Shown: positions 1 to 5,471 of the stretch, piece after piece
Numbering within the stretch: position 1 is the stretch's first letter
Layout of the letters: each line of letters opens with the position of its first letter
Assembly (NCBI GenBank): GCA_027335985.1
Contig: DAHWGX010000023.1
Coordinates: 1-5,471 of the forward strand
Reading direction: 5' to 3'
Length of the DNA: 5,471 bases
From: Nitrospirota bacterium
GTDB taxonomy: Bacteria > Nitrospirota_A > Leptospirillia > Leptospirillales > Leptospirillaceae
The notes under the pieces: generated by a model
Seen by the model: only the letters and a program-made list of their open reading frames with translations
Told to the model about the DNA's origin: nothing
The model's database searches: none
Position numbers and translations under genes: made by a program

Positions 1-229
1 ATCTGGATCCCGCGAACTGTCCATTCAGGTCGGTAATCAGGGCTTTCTCCCTGTTCGGAGACGTGTCGACTCCCTCCAGAATCCTGTACAGAAGATAATG
101 GATCGCTTGGCTTTTGCCCGACCCGGTGGTAGCGGGAATGAGCGTATGCTCGAGTTCGGATCCAGGGGGGAAGTCCAGCCCCGGAAGCCCGAAGGGAAAG
201 CTTTTCTTTCCAAATATTTTTCCAAACAT
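1..229 (-). CDS. Type IV coupling protein ATPase (TraD/VirD4-like), N-terminal fragment, cut by the window edge
   Basis: The first 76 residues are visible and the gene continues past the left edge. Residues 33-40 (ATTGSGKS) fit the Walker A pattern [AG]xxxxGK[ST], in the context IPATTGSGKSQAI typical of conjugative coupling proteins. After about 23 residues comes a strand ALITDLNGQF, resembling the 'ivyDrsGeF' segment that follows the P-loop in TraD/VirD4 proteins. Such ATPases hand the relaxase-DNA complex to the secretion channel at the inner membrane. The ATG at 229 is preceded by GGAGG (236-240) with 6 nt spacing, which fixes the start. The oddity is that the P-loop lies only 33 residues from the start and no membrane segment precedes it. 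In F TraD two N-terminal helices and well over 100 residues come first. The neighbouring gene at 247-642 could supply the missing anchor. A general HerA/FtsK-like ATPase is the main alternative, because Walker B and the C-terminus are outside the window. Confidence 0.82.
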   Translation of the reverse strand, partial: MFGKIFGKKSFPFGLPGLDFPPGSELEHTLIPATTGSGKSQAIHYLLYRILEGVDTSPNREKALITDLNGQFAGSR

Positions 230-246: not shown

Positions 247-642
247 TTAGCTGAGTCTCCCGCCTCGAAGGACGGCAGCGCCTTTTTTATTGATTGCCCG
301 GACGACAGCCGCGGCTACCAGGATCCCGATCGTCGTTCCGACGAGAAAGGGAGCCCAGAACGACGCGACGAACGCATCGTACTGGTGCTGGGCGCGAAGC
401 CACGTCTCGAAAGAACCCCATGTCCCCAGGTCGCCTTTGTAGGGCGGATACAAATGGCTCCAGAAAGCCAGCCAGTACGCATGAAAAATGTCGGATCGGC
501 TCCAGTGACCCGGTCCCCACCCCAGACGCCACCAAAGGATCTCGAGTCCGATCCAGGTCCCGCATCCTGCCAGCAGTCCGGCCAGGACCCCTCCAACTCC
601 GGCCCCGTTGTTCTGATTGTCAAAACCCTGAAAGTTGTTCAT
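247..642 (-). CDS. Small two-helix membrane protein, candidate detached membrane domain of the coupling protein
   Basis: A 131-aa protein with two clear hydrophobic helices, about residues 15-38 (Gly/Ala/Leu rich) and 93-116. They flank a ~54-residue tryptophan-rich segment containing W42, W47, W57, W61, W75 and W81. A short basic tail (KK at 119-120, then R126 and R128) suggests cytoplasmic ends and a periplasmic loop. This helix, ~55-residue loop, helix layout is that of the N-terminal domain of TraD/VirD4 coupling proteins. The following gene encodes the cytoplasmic ATPase part without that domain, 17 nt away. I infer that the two proteins together form the coupling protein. The ATG overlaps the TGA of the RHH gene (ATGA, 639-642), implying translational coupling. 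It could instead be an unrelated small transfer membrane protein. No diagnostic sequence motif was recognised. Confidence 0.72.
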   Translation of the reverse strand: MNNFQGFDNQNNGAGVGGVLAGLLAGCGTWIGLEILWWRLGWGPGHWSRSDIFHAYWLAFWSHLYPPYKGDLGTWGSFETWLRAQHQYDAFVASFWAPFLVGTTIGILVAAAVVRAINKKGAAVLRGGRLS

Positions 643-1121
643 TTCGCTCCCTCCGCTGTTCCAATGCCCATCTCCTTGAGCATTTGTTCCGATTCTTCCT
701 TCGTCAGGACCTTCGTCTCGATCCGGTCGACATCTTCGATATCAGAAAGCCTCAGGCTCTTGAGGATCCTTTCCGACTTCTTCTCCGCAATCCGGATCCT
801 TTCCTCGTGTTCTTTAAAATTTCCCGGCGACAGGAGCAGGGAGATCTGTCTCAGAAGATTTTCGGTCTTTGCCACGTCTGCGACCAGAAAACGGAGAACT
901 TCCGCAGGAACGCCGGAGCCTTCCGACTTCATGGCCTCCATCACCGTCTCCAGGGAGATTCCGGAGACGGGAACAGATTCTTTCATCGTTGTGCCTTCCA
1001 GGCCGGCTTCGATCAGATCCCGGACAAACGCGGAACGGGACTTTCCGCTCGCGCTGGCCGCTTTTGTGACCCTGGCGAACATCGCCGGCGTGACACAGAC
1101 TCGCATCGTTTCGTCGTACAT
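639..1121 (-). CDS. Ribbon-helix-helix DNA-binding protein, probable relaxosome accessory protein or autoregulator
   Basis: A 160-aa protein with an N-terminal MetJ/Arc-type ribbon-helix-helix unit: strand MRVCVT (6-11), helix 1 (about 12-25), the GKS turn (26-28), and helix 2 SRSAFVRDLIEAGLE (28-42). Residues ~75-125 form a charged helical region that could be a coiled-coil oligomerisation domain. The ATG at 1121 has AAGGAGG (1127-1133) at 5 nt. Residue M6 is a possible alternative start. RHH proteins next to coupling-protein genes (TrwA of R388, TraM-like, NikA of R64, MobC) bind oriT, help relaxase loading and often repress their own operon. This gene lies between a palindrome-rich 500-bp region and the coupling-protein genes, exactly where such a protein is found in R388-type plasmids. 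The nearest palindrome is 33 bp upstream of its start. A plasmid-partition or antitoxin-type RHH regulator is the alternative. Confidence 0.75.
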   Translation of the reverse strand: MYDETMRVCVTPAMFARVTKAASASGKSRSAFVRDLIEAGLEGTTMKESVPVSGISLETVMEAMKSEGSGVPAEVLRFLVADVAKTENLLRQISLLLSPGNFKEHEERIRIAEKKSERILKSLRLSDIEDVDRIETKVLTKEESEQMLKEMGIGTAEGAK

Positions 1122-1153
1122 CGTTCCCTCCTTCTTTTCAGGTTCCTTCCAAA

Positions 1154-1169
1154 GTTGGCATATGCCAAC
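1154..1169. repeat. Palindrome 1 (GTTGGCATATGCCAAC)
   Basis: Perfect 16-bp dyad, centre between 1161 and 1162. It is the copy closest to the RHH gene (33 bp before its ATG), so binding there could block transcription of that operon. Confidence 0.9.
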
Positions 1170-1219
1170 GAAATCACGAGGACCGGAGCCATTCCCGGAT
1201 TGGCATATGCCAATCCGAA
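1155..1219. repeat. Direct repeat module A (two dyads plus spacer)
   Basis: A 65-bp unit matching 1332-1396 at about 52 of 65 positions by hand alignment. Conserved blocks are both dyads, GAAATC just after the first dyad, GACCGGAGCCAT in the spacer and the trailing TCCGAA. Differences cluster in two short spacer patches, so the spacer block itself is also under constraint or the duplication is fairly recent. Confidence 0.8.
1196..1217. repeat. Palindrome 2 (22-bp perfect dyad)
   Basis: Perfect 22-bp palindrome: the TTGGCATATGCCAA core extended by CGGA/TCCG arms. Its centre (1206.5) is 45 bp from that of palindrome 1. It is the longest perfect dyad in the set. Confidence 0.9.
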
Positions 1220-1240
1220 AACCCCTTTTTCCCCCGGATC

Positions 1241-1265
1241 AGGGAATCGGGACCCCTGCTTCCCT
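1241..1265. repeat. Inverted repeat AGGGAA...TTCCCT
   Basis: A 6-bp inverted repeat (1241-1246 with 1260-1265) around a 13-nt loop, lying between the two dyad modules. Short stems like this can arise by chance in GC-rich DNA. Confidence 0.35.
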
Positions 1266-1287
1266 CTCGGGAGCCTCCGGAGAGATG

Positions 1288-1304
1288 CCGGTAGCGGATA
1301 CCGG
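1288..1304. repeat. Hairpin CCGGTA-GCGGA-TACCGG
   Basis: Perfect 6-bp stem (1288-1293 with 1299-1304) and 5-nt loop midway between modules A and B. It is of a different sequence class from the TTGGC dyads. In an oriT such a hairpin could mark a relaxase recognition arm, but nothing here proves that. Confidence 0.45.
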
Positions 1305-1307
1305 GAC

Positions 1308-1323
1308 CTCTCGAATTCGGGAG
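1308..1323. repeat. Imperfect palindrome centred on GAATTC
   Basis: A 16-bp dyad centred between 1315 and 1316 with one non-complementary pair. A shifted pairing (CCTCTC 1307-1312 with GAGAGG 1321-1326) is also possible. It lies 4 bp after the CCGGTA hairpin. Confidence 0.4.
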
Positions 1324-1330
1324 AGGGGAT

Positions 1331-1346
1331 GCTGGCACATGCCAAT
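1331..1346. repeat. Palindrome 3, variant (TGGCACATGCCA core)
   Basis: A degenerate copy of the dyad. The core 1333-1344 (TGGCACATGCCA) has one mismatch at the centre and loses the outer T:A pair on the left. Its centre (1338.5) is again exactly 45 bp from the next copy. Confidence 0.8.
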
Positions 1347-1396
1347 GAAATCGTCCGGACCGGAGCCATCAACTCGTTGGCATATGCCAATCCGAA
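1332..1396. repeat. Direct repeat module B (two dyads plus spacer)
   Basis: Second copy of the 65-bp unit of 1155-1219, offset by 177 bp in the same orientation. The spacing between its two dyad centres is conserved at 45 bp although the spacer differs in places, and the shared GACCGGAGCCAT block keeps its place. Confidence 0.8.
1376..1391. repeat. Palindrome 4 (TTGGCATATGCCAA core)
   Basis: Perfect 14-bp core 1377-1390, centre 1383.5, followed by the same TCCGAA as palindrome 2. Confidence 0.9.
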
Positions 1397-1417
1397 GGAC
1401 CCTCTGCGAGCGGGGCA

Positions 1418-1453
1418 TTGGCCAACGACTGTGCCAACGTTCCGGCATTGGCA
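1418..1453. repeat. Cluster of TTGGC/GCCAA half-sites
   Basis: TTGGCCAA (1418-1425) is a compressed dyad lacking the central bases. TGCCAA (1432-1437) and TTGGCA (1448-1453) form an outward-facing pair with a 10-nt loop, the mirror image of the other dyads. These look like decayed or rearranged binding sites. Confidence 0.65.
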
Positions 1454-1456
1454 TAG

Positions 1457-1474
1457 CATGGGCATATGCCCATG
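1457..1474. repeat. Palindrome 5 (CATGGGCATATGCCCATG)
   Basis: Perfect 18-bp palindrome with the same GGCATATGCC centre but CATG flanks instead of TT/AA. It is followed by GAAAAATCGGCTCCGGA, which loosely resembles the spacer after the first dyad in modules A and B, so it may be the remnant of a third module. Confidence 0.85.
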
Positions 1475-1575
1475 AAAAATCGGCTCCGGACAACGCCTTC
1501 CGACGATTTCCGGGACATCCGCCAGGGTGCGTGGTGTCCCAACAAGCGAAGGGTCCTTTTCCGGAGCGCCGGAGG

Positions 1576-1605
1576 AGGGGTCCGGGGAGTATCCCCGGTG
1601 CCCCT
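1576..1605 (-). terminator. GC-rich hairpin behind the antirepressor gene (terminator-like, no U-tract)
   Basis: Read on the minus strand it begins 13 nt after the antirepressor TGA. The stem is AGGGG, CA, CCGGGG, loop ATACT, CCCCGG, A, CCCCT: 11 pairs with a small asymmetric internal loop. No T-run follows, so it is not a canonical intrinsic terminator. It could still pause polymerase, mark the 3' end of the upstream operon's mRNA, or protect that end from exonucleases. Confidence 0.4.
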
Positions 1606-1618
1606 GGTCGTTGTCTTT

Positions 1619-2518
1619 TCATCCTTTCTGCTCCTCGAGAAACTGCCTCACCGCCGCTTCGAGAGTCTCCTGGTAGGAAGGAATCCGTCTTTCTTCCTCC
1701 AATATCCGCTCCCGAATCGTGTAGGAGATGTCGAAGATCTTCCGGGAGATCCGCTCAAAGGTCTCCAGGTTCCGGGATGTCGGTGGAATGCCCCGTTCCA
1801 TCAACCACGAATCCAGACCGGAACTCCCGCCCGTCCAAAGAAGGGCCAACGGCTCTTGTGCAAGAGCCCGGTACAGGACCACAAGCGTGGCGGGATCCTC
1901 GTCCGCCGGAACCGGCTTTTCCTCTCCGGGACTCGGGCCGGTCGGATCCTCTCCCAACAGGAGAACCACGACGCTCCAGGCCGCCCGCCGCGCGTCCGCG
2001 AGACCAAAGATCTCGCGCTCCCGGAAATCCAGGATCGTCTTTTTGAGCTTCATCGCCCGGTCTGTCCGGAGCCGCATCGCTTCGAGCCGGAGACGCTCCC
2101 GCTCAAGGATCCGGTCCGAAGGCTCCGGGACCGGATGATCCTCCGGAAGACGGGGATTGGTCACTTGGCCTTTCGTCCAGTACTCCCAGAGAACGTCGTC
2201 GCACTCGTTCTGAAAGGCCAATGCTTTTTCCCGGATCTCCGGCTTCAGACGAGAGACCTGGATGGTCATAAGCCAGCCGGGAAGCTTACGGAGGGGCATG
2301 CAAAGTGTGTCCTGATCTCCGCTTTGGGAAGGTATCCGTATAACACGGATACCCCATCTTTCCCTGTCTCTATTCAACCGATCATTTTGTCCTGTCCAAC
2401 TCAGTCCCATTCCTTCGACGATGGGCTTCATGGGGGTAAAGGGTTCACCCCCGACATCGACAAGAAAAAGATCGTTCCCGTGAAATGGAACACTCATGGT
2501 TCTGATTTCCGTTGTCAT
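1619..2518 (-). CDS. Phage-type antirepressor with P22_AR_N domain
   Basis: A 299-aa protein. Residues ~8-117 match the P22 antirepressor N-terminal domain family (P22_AR_N) in order: VPFHGNDLFLVDVGGEPF near the start, then MKPIVEGMGLSW, QNDRLNRD, LCMPLRKLPGWLMTI (72-86), and a closing VLWEYWTKG (109-117). Proteins of this family inactivate phage repressors or act as regulators in prophages. Residues ~135-180 are a charged helical stretch, and the C-terminal half is not recognised. The ATG at 2518 has AAAGGA about 7 nt upstream, with M8 as an alternative start. It follows the preceding membrane-protein gene by 18 nt, so it probably belongs to the same transcript as conjugation genes. That is an unusual position for a phage regulator. 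By inference it may control transfer genes by antagonising an element-encoded repressor. The domain call is firm, the role is not. Confidence 0.88.
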   Translation of the reverse strand: MTTEIRTMSVPFHGNDLFLVDVGGEPFTPMKPIVEGMGLSWTGQNDRLNRDRERWGIRVIRIPSQSGDQDTLCMPLRKLPGWLMTIQVSRLKPEIREKALAFQNECDDVLWEYWTKGQVTNPRLPEDHPVPEPSDRILERERLRLEAMRLRTDRAMKLKKTILDFREREIFGLADARRAAWSVVVLLLGEDPTGPSPGEEKPVPADEDPATLVVLYRALAQEPLALLWTGGSSGLDSWLMERGIPPTSRNLETFERISRKIFDISYTIRERILEEERRIPSYQETLEAAVRQFLEEQKG

Positions 2519-2536
2519 TTTTCATCCTTTCGCTTG

Positions 2537-3076
2537 TCAGTGGAGGTTGCAGGTCAGTCCCGAACTCATGGAAGGGGGGATTCCGGTCATGGAGGAGAGA
2601 GGGCCTCCTCCCCCGGCGGCCGGCCCGGACCCCGAAAGCTGGGCGAATCGAGGAAGGTCCGGAACAGCGGCGAAGAGGGCGGCCAGAACAATCACCAAAA
2701 AGACGCCCGCGGCAACGACTCCTGGCGCGCCGCCCCGTCTTCGGAGGGCGCGTTCGATCTTCCCCAAAAGGAGCCGATTGGAATCCGCATTCCCCGGACT
2801 TCCGATCGGAACCGTTTTTCCGTTTCCATCCCGCACGTGGACCCCATCCTCGTCGGACGAAAAGACGACTTCCGCCTCGAGGGGAAGAACCCCGACCCGC
2901 GTTCCGTCTCCCCATTCGAGAACCCAGGATCCTTTCCGGCCCCGAATCCGGGCCCAGGACTTAGGTGCCGGAACCTTTTTTCCGGCACTCCTCCGGGCAA
3001 TCAGAACCTTGAAAATCCTCCGGAAACGATTGGGTTTTTTGACCGGAGGTCCCGCTTCTTCCCTGATTTCTTCCAT
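2537..3076 (-). CDS. Single-span membrane protein of the transfer operon, function unknown
   Basis: A 179-aa protein with a strongly basic N-terminal region (KKPNRFRR at 13-20, RR at 28-29, KK at 33-34). A beta-rich middle (~50-92: WVLEWGDGTRVGVLPLEAEVVF, then DGVHVRDGNGKTVPIG, both partial quotations) could be a small barrel-like fold. One membrane helix lies at about 117-138. A Gly/Pro/Ser-rich tail with one cysteine (C176) completes it. The helix near the C-terminus, with the basic end presumably cytoplasmic, would leave only ~40 residues in the periplasm. I do not recognise the family. Its place after an IcmC/TraQ-like gene suggests a secretion-apparatus component. A longer frame exists to 3307, but it overlaps the upstream gene and is low-complexity. 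The ATG at 3076 with AAGGAG at 5 nt is the better start. Confidence 0.7.
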   Translation of the reverse strand: MEEIREEAGPPVKKPNRFRRIFKVLIARRSAGKKVPAPKSWARIRGRKGSWVLEWGDGTRVGVLPLEAEVVFSSDEDGVHVRDGNGKTVPIGSPGNADSNRLLLGKIERALRRRGGAPGVVAAGVFLVIVLAALFAAVPDLPRFAQLSGSGPAAGGGGPLSSMTGIPPSMSSGLTCNLH

Positions 3077-3081
3077 CTCTT

Positions 3082-3087
3082 CTCCTT
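3082..3087 (-). promoter_or_regulatory. Shine-Dalgarno fixing the start at 3076
   Basis: AAGGAG, 5 nt before ATG 3076, inside the 56-nt gap after the TGA (3133-3135) of the upstream gene. It decides for the 179-aa form over a 256-aa upstream-extended form. Confidence 0.75.
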
Positions 3088-3132
3088 GGTTTTTGATTTT
3101 TGTCCGGATCGGTTTCAGACCGCCCTCCGGTC

Positions 3133-3666
3133 TCACCCGACCGGGCCTGTCCCCATATAGCCCCCCATCATTCCCAGGAATTGCTGGATGTTGATCAGGA
3201 AGATCCCCGCGACGAAATGCGTCGTTCCCCTCCAGACCGTTCCCGGAGGAGAACCCGACCGGGCGGATTCGGACCAGAGGAGAAAGGCCCGGAATGCCGC
3301 GAGCCACCCGAAGAATTTCAGGATGACGAAGGCGAAGGAGGGGATCCCTCCCGTCGGGGACGTGCCGGATCCGCTTGAGCCCGTATAGGAAAACGTCGAA
3401 AGACTTCCCGTCGAGAACCCGATGGTCTGGGTGGCAGAGTTCACAAAATAGACGAAGTTCACGAGACCGATGCCCAAGACAAACTGGGCGACGGCTCCCA
3501 TCAGGGACTCTCCCCGTTTCTGGTCCTCGACTGCCCGGTACAGTCCGTACCCGCAGAACACAAGCCCCGTCAGGGTCGCGAACGTGGTCAGGAGCGTCCA
3601 GAAGGCGGGCAAGTCGTTCGCCACCTGCTGCAACATGGCGGTGGCCGTGGAAGTCATGCCGCCCAT
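3133..3666 (-). CDS. Four-helix membrane protein, IcmC(DotE)/TraQ-like type IVB secretion component
   Basis: A 177-aa protein with four predicted membrane helices at about 22-44, 57-77, 110-131 and 150-171. A Ser/Gly/Thr-rich loop (~85-108) separates the two hairpins. The pattern agrees with the IcmC/DotE and IncI TraQ family as I remember it: helix 1 followed by a short charged stretch (YRAVEDQKRGES), a second Gly-rich helix, then WLAAFRAFLLW, and a final helix beginning with His (THFVAGIFLINIQQF). These are small inner-membrane parts of type IVB apparatuses, but the match is by pattern only. The ATG at 3666 lies one base after the TGA of the nuclease gene (TGAC-ATG), with GGAG 11 nt before it. 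A second ATG at 3657 is possible. The longer frame upstream to 3879 overlaps the nuclease gene and is rejected. Confidence 0.7.
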   Translation of the reverse strand: MGGMTSTATAMLQQVANDLPAFWTLLTTFATLTGLVFCGYGLYRAVEDQKRGESLMGAVAQFVLGIGLVNFVYFVNSATQTIGFSTGSLSTFSYTGSSGSGTSPTGGIPSFAFVILKFFGWLAAFRAFLLWSESARSGSPPGTVWRGTTHFVAGIFLINIQQFLGMMGGYMGTGPVG

Positions 3667-3667
3667 G

Positions 3668-4339
3668 TCAGTTCGGGCTCCAGGACCGGTTGGATCCCCG
3701 GGTCCAGATTCTCCGGAACGTCTCTTCGAATTTCCGGACCTCCCGGGGATTGCCCGTGACGAACAGGTTGTTGTCCTGCTGGTTCCAATGATTCCGGTAT
3801 CCCCTGGTGCAATAAGCCCCCTCCCCGGGGGGCGACCAGTTGGCCGACCCTGTCCGGAGCCATTTCCCGTCGATCGCATAGGCCTTCAGATGCATGATGT
3901 TTCGGGACGAATTGCGTTTGACCTCTATTTGGATAAGTCCTTCCCGACCGGCACGGGAAGACAGAATGCGTCCCGATTTGTCGCCCCGGTCCCGGATCTG
4001 GATACCGTCCCGATAGATCCACACCCGGACCCCACGGGAGGCCGCGCGGATCACCGCGTCGGCGATAGGTCGGTCCGTGAAGGCATACATGGCAATTTCG
4101 ATCCTTTGCCTGGCGTGGTCGATCAGATCCACATCGATGGATTCGAGGTTCTCTTCCGGAGAGTAGTGCTCCCCAAGAAGGGATTCGGGAGAGGCCGAAA
4201 TCTCCCTCGAACACGAAAACATGCGGCCGGAGCCGGGGAAGGACCAGGCGCCCGCCTGGGCGCTTCCCGCCAGAAGAATGCCGGAAATTGCCAACATGGA
4301 GAATCCAGGTGCGATCCGGGAGGAAGAAGGAAACTTCAC
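3668..4339 (-). CDS. Secreted PLD-superfamily (HKD) nuclease, Nuc-like
   Basis: A 223-aa protein with a signal peptide: basic start, hydrophobic FSMLAISGILLAGSAQA, probable cleavage after AQA (residue 29). Hence it is periplasmic or exported. The phospholipase D fold follows: LIDHARQRIEIAMYAF (72-87), then RGVRVWIYRD (102-111). The single catalytic HxK(x4)D motif is H150, K152, D157, with the downstream GSANWS (164-169). One HKD motif and this length match the Nuc subfamily of pKM101 and similar plasmids, which dimerises to form the active site and cleaves DNA non-specifically. The start is GTG at 4339, with GGAGG only 4 nt upstream. It overlaps the TGA of a 16-codon ORF (GTGA), so translation is probably coupled to it. 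In conjugation systems such nucleases are common passengers whose role is unsettled. Confidence 0.9.
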   Translation of the reverse strand: MKFPSSSRIAPGFSMLAISGILLAGSAQAGAWSFPGSGRMFSCSREISASPESLLGEHYSPEENLESIDVDLIDHARQRIEIAMYAFTDRPIADAVIRAASRGVRVWIYRDGIQIRDRGDKSGRILSSRAGREGLIQIEVKRNSSRNIMHLKAYAIDGKWLRTGSANWSPPGEGAYCTRGYRNHWNQQDNNLFVTGNPREVRKFEETFRRIWTRGSNRSWSPN

Positions 4340-4386
4340 GCGGCCTCCGTCTTTTTCCGGGCTTTCTTTTTTCCGGGACCTTTCAT
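4336..4386 (-). CDS. 16-codon lysine-rich small ORF coupled to the nuclease gene
   Basis: It reads MKGPGKKKARKKTEAA then TGA. Its ATG (4386) has a near-ideal AAGGAG (4395-4400) at 8 nt, much better than the signal of the nuclease gene itself. The stop overlaps the nuclease GTG start as GTGA, the same coupling device seen at 4890-4893. It is therefore likely translated and delivers ribosomes to the nuclease start. The A-rich run of lysine/arginine codons could also slow ribosomes and set expression. Whether the peptide has a function of its own is unknown. Confidence 0.55.
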   Translation of the reverse strand: MKGPGKKKARKKTEAA

Positions 4387-4437
4387 TGGATATTCTCCTT
4401 CAATTGTAAACGGTATATAAAAATACCATTTTAATAT
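4387..4437 (-). promoter_or_regulatory. AT-rich gap with inverted repeat, candidate promoter for the nuclease operon
   Basis: Between the prepilin peptidase stop and the small ORF lies a 51-bp AT-rich stretch, in sharp contrast to the GC-rich surroundings. It contains an inverted repeat at 4412-4427 (GGTAT, 6-nt loop, ATACC) and -10-like hexamers on the minus strand (TATATA inside the repeat, TACAAT at 4402-4407). No good TTGACA was found at the right distance. The repeat overlapping a possible -10 would suit an operator. Promoter assignment is tentative. Confidence 0.35.
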
Positions 4438-4893
4438 TTAAAAATGAAACAGACTCCTGTTACGAAAGACAAATGATAAAAGACACCCGGTCAGGCCCCC
4501 AGCGGCCAGAAAGGGTCCGAACGGAAAGATCTTCTCTTTTTTCCGGACCCCGACAACAGCCAGGGCCATCAGTCCTCCGGAGACAAGGGCGATTCCCAGT
4601 CCCATGAGGCCGAAAAAGGCTCCGGTCGCGCCAGCGAATACGGCATCCCCGAACCCGAACGTTTTTTGTCTTTTCCAGGCCAGGATTCCGAGGGGAACGA
4701 TTCCGGCCGTGAAGCCCAGAAAAGATTCCAGGGGAGTCAGCCCGTTTCCCGAAACGAACGAAAACAGAAAACCGAGTCCCGCCAACGGAAGGGTCATCCG
4801 GTGGGGAAGACGGAGTGTCTTCAGGTCGATCGCCGAGAGGACCGTCCCGAAGACGGCGAATATGCCGGCCTTGAACCAGAAAACGGATGTCAC
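4438..4893 (-). CDS. Prepilin peptidase, A24 family (minimal catalytic form)
   Basis: A 151-aa, very hydrophobic protein with about five or six membrane helices. The aspartyl-protease signature of A24 enzymes is present: D23 in AIDLKTLRLPHRMTLPL and the GFGD motif at 80-83 (D83). A family-typical FPFGPFLAAGG closes it at 123-133. It cleaves the leader of type IV prepilins at the cytoplasmic face of the inner membrane. It lacks the N-terminal methyltransferase/zinc-binding half of PilD, like CpaA/TadV-type enzymes, so it may not methylate its substrates. IncI plasmids also carry a prepilin peptidase (PilU) for their thin pilus, in keeping with the type IVB-like neighbours. The start is GTG at 4893, overlapping the TGA of the upstream gene (GTGA). 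No strong ribosome-binding site precedes it, so translational coupling is likely. No pilin gene is visible in this window. Confidence 0.88.
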   Translation of the reverse strand: MTSVFWFKAGIFAVFGTVLSAIDLKTLRLPHRMTLPLAGLGFLFSFVSGNGLTPLESFLGFTAGIVPLGILAWKRQKTFGFGDAVFAGATGAFFGLMGLGIALVSGGLMALAVVGVRKKEKIFPFGPFLAAGGLTGCLLSFVFRNRSLFHF

Positions 4894-5471
4894 GGACAGC
4901 GTTCCGCCCGTTCACGGATCCACTCCTGGGCTGTCTGGGCGTCCTCCAAAATCCGTTCCTTCCCCATCGACCGGATCTTCAACCCCGTCCGGAAGGTCTC
5001 CAGCATCCAGCCCGCCGTGTCTTCCCGGGAGAGTTTTTCGGAAAATGGCACCACGAAACATGAAAGGACCCCTCCTTCGATCAGGTCGACAATTTCCCGG
5101 TAAATCCGGAACATGTCCCAGTCGATCCGGACGTCGTCGATTGTCACGCCGTGAAGCGTCGTCGTTCCCCGGGCGTGGAAATCGAATCGGGCAATGGTGC
5201 TGCGGTGATTTCCGTCGGTTGACACGTAGAAGTCCAGCCCGTCCAGGGTGATGTAGGTCATTTCCGGAAGCTTCCGGACGGTTTCGAGATAATAATCAGG
5301 ATTCGTTTCGTGAAGCGCCAGGTTTTCCGGCATCCGTTTCCCGTTCTCGAGCATCCACCGCCAGCTCATGTTTTTGTAGTCCGGGTGTCTGGTCCCGACG
5401 ATCCGGAAGACATTGACCGATCCCGAATCGCACCAGTAGCGCCGTTTGACGAACGGCAGCGCCTCCCGGTA
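4890..5471 (-). CDS. ParB/sulfiredoxin-fold-like protein, C-terminal part, cut by the window edge
   Basis: The frame stays open from the TGA at 4890-4892 to the right edge, giving at least 193 residues. The ATG at 5369 has no Shine-Dalgarno, and the 34 codons upstream of it read as normal protein (for example RYWCDSGSVNVFRIVGTRHP), so the true start is outside the window. The recognisable core is YITLDGLDFYVSTDGNHRSTIARF (quoted in part), in which strands lead to DGNHR at residues 86-90 of the visible fragment. This resembles the GxxR/DGNHR motif of ParB N-terminal and sulfiredoxin-like domains, which bind nucleotides or act as nucleases. A second strand (HGVTIDDVRIDW) follows, then helices. 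No helix-turn-helix of a true ParB is seen. Its role next to a prepilin peptidase is unknown. Assignment to the superfamily is moderate and function is not assigned. Confidence 0.7.
   Translation of the reverse strand, partial: YREALPFVKRRYWCDSGSVNVFRIVGTRHPDYKNMSWRWMLENGKRMPENLALHETNPDYYLETVRKLPEMTYITLDGLDFYVSTDGNHRSTIARFDFHARGTTTLHGVTIDDVRIDWDMFRIYREIVDLIEGGVLSCFVVPFSEKLSREDTAGWMLETFRTGLKIRSMGKERILEDAQTAQEWIRERAERCP

Follow-up and report, generated by a model that had tools for sequence, protein, structure and literature searches.

What is the function of a gene-free gap that is filled with related palindromes and lies directly upstream of a gene for a ribbon-helix-helix (RHH) DNA-binding protein? 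The gap occupies positions 1122..1618 (497 bp, no strand assigned) of a 5471-bp window, by which we mean the whole stretch of DNA analysed here, and all likely genes of the window lie on the minus strand. We treat the gap as a candidate relaxosome/oriT and operator region, and we put the probability that it is an RHH-bound relaxosome/oriT region that also autoregulates at about 0.47. The oriT reading is plausible and unproven, and comparison with two plasmids strengthens it somewhat. The window itself probably lies on a transferable (conjugative) element of Leptospirillum-like bacteria. If the reading is right, a conjugative element of the Leptospirillum lineage, acidophiles used in biomining, gains a candidate oriT region, and a natural series of RHH proteins with differing DNA-reading domains becomes available for following how proteins and sites are paired. 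As a mechanism, such an arrangement has precedents in R388, pWBG749 and other systems.

Which genes surround the gap? Downstream of it on the minus strand are the RHH gene (639..1121), whose 160-aa product combines an N-terminal RHH domain with a helical C-terminal part that close relatives conserve, an ORF for a 131-aa protein with two hydrophobic regions (247..642), and the first 76 aa of a coupling-protein-like ATPase (2..229) that runs off the window. The ATPase fragment matches TrwB_AAD_bind (6.4e-8) and TraD_Ftype (1.3e-4), the latter alignment starting at profile position 161, and holds no hydrophobic segment. An RHH gene followed by a coupling-protein gene had been claimed in the first-pass annotation; the order is right, but the 131-aa ORF lies between the two. 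Its product matched no family of Pfam, NCBIfam or PHROGs at E 0.01 or better. Since the ATPase aligns from TraD position 161 onwards and lacks a hydrophobic segment, the 131-aa protein is plausibly the membrane anchor of the coupling protein, encoded separately. No relaxase gene was seen within the 5471-bp window, which ends inside the coupling gene.

On the opposite side of the gap from the RHH gene, and likewise on the minus strand, are genes for a P22_AR_N/anti-repressor-like protein (1619..2518), a protein with one hydrophobic segment (2537-3106), an IncI1 TraQ-like membrane protein (3133..3675), a PLD-family protein with a hydrophobic N-terminus (3668-4339) and an A24 prepilin peptidase (4438-4893), followed by an unknown, open-ended ORF (4890-5471). 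The match of the TraQ-like protein to NF033883 (1.6e-13, 50.9 bits, below the cut-off of 80) suggests a transfer region. The PLD-family protein resembles NucT nucleases and, more weakly, DrmC of DISARM; PLD nucleases are frequent companions of transfer genes.

Is the gap truly free of genes, and is its array of dyads real? Five ORFs crossing the gap gave no Pfam match at E 0.1, and Rfam returned nothing at E 0.1 for window positions 1000-1750, which bears out the earlier claim that no gene lies there. The dyad array is real and far above chance. When the window was scanned with TTGGCATATGCCAA at up to 3 mismatches, five 14-mers were found (starting at 1155, 1200, 1332, 1377 and 1459), all within the gap and none elsewhere in the 5471 bp; 0.07 were expected for the whole window, and 0/200 shuffles reached five. 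Three of the five are exact, and two carry 2 mismatches. Perfect even palindromes of at least 12 nt number four in the 497-bp gap, zero in 1-1121 and two in 1619-5471, and the same count in 300 shuffles of the gap had a mean of 0.18 and a maximum of 2. The half-sites TTGGCA/TGCCAA, also claimed earlier, are concentrated in the gap as well, which holds 9 of the 10 in the window, and an 8-mer present five times, as in the gap, was seen in 0/1000 gap shuffles.

Dyad 1 (1154..1169, GTTGGCATATGCCAAC; perfect arms over 16 bp) is the closest to the RHH start codon, 33-48 bp upstream of it. Dyad 2 (1196..1217) is the perfect 22-bp palindrome CGGATTGGCATATGCCAATCCG, with a strong single-strand fold (z -5.3). 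Then come dyad 3 (1332..1345), the variant CTGGCACATGCCAA with 2 mismatches, dyad 4 (1377..1390), which is TTGGCATATGCCAA itself with perfect arms over 14 bp, and dyad 5 (1457..1474, CATGGGCATATGCCCATG), perfect over 18 bp and differing from the 14-mer at 2 positions. The earlier count of at least five palindromes sharing the GGCATATGCC centre was slightly generous, because five dyads are present and the centre is exact in four, the dyad at 1332 having GGCACATGCC. The first four dyads are carried by a 71-nt repeat on the plus strand, copy 1 (1156..1226) holding dyads 1 and 2 and copy 2 (1333..1403; 79% identity to copy 1) holding dyads 3 and 4, each pair spaced by 45 bp.

Might these dyads belong to something other than the RHH protein? 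Either the P22_AR_N protein or a replication protein could use them as its target, or the palindrome could be dispersed and unrelated. Two records of a plasmid collection, p49879.1 and p49879.2 of Leptospirillum ferrooxidans (tblastn E 0.01 and 0.005), encode a relative of the RHH protein, and we looked for REP-like scatter of the dyad, raised by the first-pass annotation as a possible objection, in the window and in both plasmids. Three loose matches occur in p49879.1, a number reached by 0/100 shuffles, and this argues for dispersal; the two matches in p49879.2 are at chance level (24/100 shuffles), and no further dyad lies in the window. Two dyads in each copy of a 71-nt repeat placed directly before the RHH gene also argue against dispersal, as do scans of IMG/VR for paired dyads, which gave 0 stretches under strict and 10 under loose settings, none with a convincing RHH relative. 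We consider an allegiance of the dyads elsewhere very unlikely. The ten loose stretches (L004-L013) were set aside, their flanks being different and a profile search of their ORFs giving a best E of 0.85. One of these contigs, L009, carries the 22-bp palindrome AGTTTAGGCATATGCCTAAACT twice, 59 bp apart, at 3732-3812, apparently unrelated to the RHH family.

What kind of protein is encoded beside the array? The RHH protein matches RHH_1 (0.00096) and a NikA-like model (0.0014), both under the Pfam cut-offs, and in other profile collections a RelB-like antitoxin model (0.0015) and a phage repressor family (0.0049). With all four at about 0.001-0.005, family names do not decide its role. Among 25 relatives at E 0.1, RHH_1 matches 11 (best 4e-4) and the NikA-like model 9 (best 1.1e-5). 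An AF2 model places residues 1-40 at pLDDT 77-90 and the rest poorly (mean of the whole model 65.6, pTM 0.28), and Foldseek ranks RHH proteins on top (TacA/AtaR antitoxins and CopG, all at E >0.07), a NikA fragment coming 25th. Profile matches and model agree on a predicted ribbon-helix-helix domain at the N-terminus.

The relatives of this protein numbered 25 in a first protein search and 56 in a profile search, which scored the 7993 candidates sharing most words; P0019 and P0021, among the first 25, are not in the list of 56. An organism is named for six of the 56, as Leptospirillum ferrooxidans, Leptospirales bacterium or Nitrospiraceae bacterium, which makes an origin of the window in the Leptospirillum lineage probable. 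One alignment (A1) used 24 of the 25 relatives, omitting P0022 (269 aa), and a second (A2) used 16 of the 25 with the window protein and the p49879.1 protein. In the close set, mean identity is 43% for N-termini and 67% for C-termini (23 of 25 aligned rows, the window protein included); in the wide set the means are 42% and 43% (53 of 60 proteins, 7 being omitted by length). A generally lower conservation of N-termini was rejected, as it holds in the close set only and not in the wide set, and for this reason we use only pairwise contrasts between the two parts. The window protein and P0007 share 27% identity at the N-terminus and 86% at the C-terminus. An N-terminus at ≤40% with a C-terminus at ≥85% is found in 17 of 1378 pairs and the reverse kind, N ≥80% with C ≤50%, in 10 of 1378, pairs that share proteins and are not independent. 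From these alignments, it seems that domains were exchanged within the family or evolved at unequal pace. Related loci were confirmed in 0/126 and 0/62 stretches of genome contigs and in 0/9 and 0/46 stretches of viral contigs for the window protein, and in 0/15 stretches for the p49879 relative.

Is any part of the gap conserved? The first-pass annotation had advised a comparison with related elements, and the two L. ferrooxidans plasmids, whose RHH relatives score profile E values of 1e-26 and 1.7e-23 (the set of ORFs searched being small), provide it: they share a hairpin block and a CACGCACCC block upstream of the RHH relative. Being 97.6% identical over the compared stretch, p49879.1 and p49879.2 count as one comparison. 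When both were tiled at 450 bp, the best local match of the gap fell directly upstream of the RHH gene in each. In p49879.1 this best tile contains CGGGGATRCTCCCCGRACCCCTC (21/23, score 36, 0/200 shuffles; next tiles 32 and 30), and in p49879.2 it scores 31 (1/200 shuffles; next 28), with a weaker match to the hairpin than in p49879.1. The corresponding hairpin block of the window, CGGGGATACTCCCCGGACCCCTC (1575..1597, minus strand; 21/23 identity with the block upstream of the p49879.1 RHH gene), is the best-conserved part of the gap, rather than the dyads, and its 20-base core at ≤3 mismatches occurs once in each source (window, p49879.1 and p49879.2).

The CACGCACCC block (1525..1533, minus strand) has a single occurrence in the window and a single one in the examined stretch of each plasmid. 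As the longer string ACA[CG]CACGCACCC it comes after the hairpin block in the same order and orientation in all three. Shuffles reached its score in 11 and 5 of 300 cases over 95 nt and in 9 and 15 over 200 nt, and over 453 nt it is unremarkable (38 and 32/300). These shuffles, those of the tile scan and those for the palindrome count of the gap used a home-made swap method; those for repeated 8-mers and for the R388 string discussed below used an Euler-path method. An unusual hairpin around CACGCACCC was rejected, since folding there is ordinary (z -0.7 and -0.3; 1.35 in p49879.1). The hairpin block was likewise rejected as a terminator, with no terminator-like site in 1000-1700 and divergent genes flanking the p49879.1 block.

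The layout common to the window and p49879 thus consists of hairpin block, CACGCACCC block, element-specific sites and RHH gene. What are the specific sites of the plasmids? The sequence GAGGAGCA, chosen by eye, occurs three times within 78 bp upstream of the p49879 RHH gene, and these are all three occurrences in the 25.9 kb of p49879.1 examined, although the count itself is ordinary for that length (1.1 expected; 9/100 shuffles reach 3). An 8-mer present three times in the 221 bp upstream was seen in 0/1000 shuffles for p49879.1 and 1/1000 for p49879.2; among tiles of the two plasmids, 13/234 and 5/248 contain some 8-mer three times, counting the tiles over the RHH upstream stretch.

A second candidate for the origin of transfer exists on these plasmids. 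The MOBQ-type core TAAGTGCGCCCT, which we take to be a MOBQ nic core motif, adjoins mobQ in both (13673-13684 in p49879.1 and 21985-21996 in p49879.2, in coordinates of the stretches examined), about 2.5 kb from the RHH locus. The RHH locus therefore need not be the nick site there and is not the sole candidate oriT of the p49879 plasmids. No coupling gene is listed for them among the features seen (27/30 and 33/33; the PLSDB table is incomplete). The two loci thus agree in a homologous RHH gene with the hairpin and CACGCACCC blocks upstream in the same order, and differ in that p49879.1/.2 lacks the dyad of the window and has another site (GAGGAGCA, three times), no listed coupling gene and a MOBQ-type core about 2.5 kb away.

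Could the gap then be an operator and nothing else, through which the RHH protein autorepresses the coupling-protein operon by way of the dyads, with oriT elsewhere on the element? This is a serious rival to the relaxosome/oriT reading, if on balance somewhat unlikely. The distance of about 2.5 kb between RHH gene and MOBQ-type core in p49879 fits it, as does the position of dyad 1, some 40 bp upstream of the RHH start codon, and repressor and antitoxin models fit the RHH protein about as well as the NikA-like model. The sites bound by RHH accessory factors lie within nic or close to it, and autorepression is described for some of these factors, MobC of RA3 (PMC4175270) and TrwA (PMC3937220) among them. 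TrwA represses only its own promoter (PMC3937220), and deletion of the MobC operator had no effect on transfer when another promoter drove the operon (PMC4175270). Five sites across about 320 bp are, however, many for a single promoter, and p49879 shares the hairpin block at the other end of the gap. A sigma-70-like promoter was sought in 1000-1700 and not found, which is weak evidence against an operator. Because dyad 1 lies so close to the start codon, the relaxosome/oriT reading incorporates repression as well: the RHH binding that would build the transfer complex probably also represses the operon.

A segregation function deserves the same scrutiny. RHH proteins also act as centromere binders, and the array might be a centromere- or StbA-like stability site bound by the RHH protein and placed beside transfer genes, as in R388, where the trwA-stbA gap holds repeats that are presumably StbA sites. 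The NikA-like model gives this some colour, matching in p49879.1 the annotated ParG and not the RHH relative (in p49879.2 it matches nothing). Yet the genes next to the array are the two-TM ORF and the coupling-like ATPase, with P22_AR_N across the gap, and no ParA/ParM-like motor gene was seen beside the RHH gene within the window. Moreover, p49879.1 already has an annotated ParA and ParG besides its RHH relative, and p49879.2 a ParA-family protein. We regard a stability site as quite unlikely.

If the gap is a relaxosome/oriT region, where would it be nicked? TATCCTGY, which we take to be an oriT nic-core motif, is absent from the gap at ≤1 mismatch, in agreement with the earlier statement that no IncP/IncI-type nic core is present; elsewhere in the window it occurs five times at ≤1 mismatch against 3.46 expected. 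A MOBP/MOBQ nic core in the gap was rejected, as both TATCCTGY (1 mismatch) and TAAGTGCGCCCT (3 mismatches) are absent and the best scores are at chance. For MOBF we used GGTGCGTATTGTCTATAG, presumably the nic-strand sequence of R388, a 14-base string with a single occurrence in the R388 record. Within the gap it matches best at the CACGCACCC block (plus-strand 14-mer from 1526, 11/14), and it does so in both plasmids too, the strand being the same each time with respect to the RHH gene. Shuffles reached the match in 7/400 cases for the window and in 4 and 9/400 for p49879, scores that share the CACGCACCC block and hence are not independent. Extended to 18 bases the match weakens (12/18 in the window; 22, 51 and 39/400 shuffles), and the bases beside the R388 nick position differ, TGTCC in the window against TGTGT in p49879. 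On sequence likeness, this gives a hint only of an R388-like nic site.

How would such a region work? In the model that we favour, the gap controls in cis an operon for conjugative DNA processing. The RHH protein would bind the TTGGCATATGCCAA dyads through its N-terminal beta-ribbon, probably as two dimers per dyad, and the occupied sites would form a nucleoprotein complex next to the relaxase target. This target may lie on the conserved side of the gap, at about 1500-1600, where the hairpin and CACGCACCC blocks are found, which would place the dyads between it and the RHH gene. The helical C-terminus could then join the complex to the relaxase, the coupling protein of the same operon, or both.

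This model has several precedents. The order in R388 (IncW) is gap, trwA, coupling gene and relaxase, and the window resembles it in that a gap without genes precedes an RHH gene and then a TrwB-family coupling gene, both reading away from the gap, and in its 11/14 match to the nic string in the same orientation. R388 TrwA itself matches the window family profile weakly, in the RHH part (E 0.063). Unlike R388, the window has an extra two-TM ORF before the coupling protein, whose start has no hydrophobic segment, shows no relaxase within its bounds, and carries an IncI-like TraQ-like gene, whereas R388 is typed MPF_T. The original proposal of an oriT/relaxosome site in R388 layout is partly supported. 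The order of the genes suits a TrwA-like protein beside its sites, as do the N-terminus of the RHH protein, the start of the coupling protein and the nearby TraQ-like gene, but neither a relaxase gene nor a clear nic site was seen in the window, and the gap, at 59% GC, is not AT-rich.

A Burkholderia plasmid and a Staphylococcus family offer further parallels. In the Ptw plasmid, oriT-ptwABC combines an RHH gene, a coupling gene and a repeat-rich gap with a secretion system of another family, as in the window, and the authors of that report did not see a nic sequence like that of R388 (PMC4853378). Unlike here, mobilisation established the Ptw oriT, its relaxase gene is identified and its gap has AT-rich segments. 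The pWBG749 family of Staphylococcus (PMC8136818, PMC4652767) likewise has an RHH gene beside its sites, common blocks together with element-specific sites, and a divergent DNA-reading N-terminus; the N-terminus of its SmpO sets oriT specificity, and when a clone carried an oriT along with the matching smpO, a helper with a different specificity mobilised it. The window has five dyads and not two oss sites, and the likeness described here is one of layout.

Might the locus form part of an exchangeable cassette? In Leptospirillum-type elements, oriT-like blocks and an RHH gene could travel together as a transfer cassette in which the reading domain and the sites change together and the coupling-facing C-terminus is kept. 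Non-conjugative plasmids like p49879.1/.2 would carry a copy besides their own MOBQ oriT, and so ride the coupling protein of a conjugative element. We consider this idea unlikely. If true, it would amount to a hitch-hiker/helper specificity code like staphylococcal SmpO/oriT, but in a lineage of acidophiles, where the apparatus would be IncI-like and the coupling protein split.

Database searches recovered few further relatives. The whole window gave one 75-bp match among plasmids, in the P22_AR gene, and none among phages, and the gap alone gave three plasmid records, all at E 0.1 or worse. Searched against plasmids, the p49879.1 upstream stretch found itself and p49879.2, beyond which came 21 records with E values of 1 or worse, and the p49879.1 RHH relative found the two p49879 plasmids and one record at E 0.5. 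The TraQ-like protein gave one weak plasmid record (E 0.05); the 2537-3106 protein, the coupling fragment and the 131-aa protein gave nothing there. The hairpin-plus-CACGCACCC pattern had 0 matches in viral contigs.

Several features of the neighbourhood are worth recording in their own right. A TraQ-like IncI1 protein beside a TrwB/TraD-like coupling protein suggests a mixed transfer system. The coupling protein is possibly split, with an anchorless ATPase start (2-229) and a separate two-TM 131-aa protein (247-642); a class of coupling proteins that lack a TM domain has been described (PMC7431656). A phage anti-repressor-type P22_AR_N protein (1619-2518) sits among likely transfer genes. Finally, the AT-rich intergenic stretch ggtatataaaaataccattttaatattta before the PLD gene (4340-4440) may, judged by eye, hold a promoter, and it includes a short inverted repeat.
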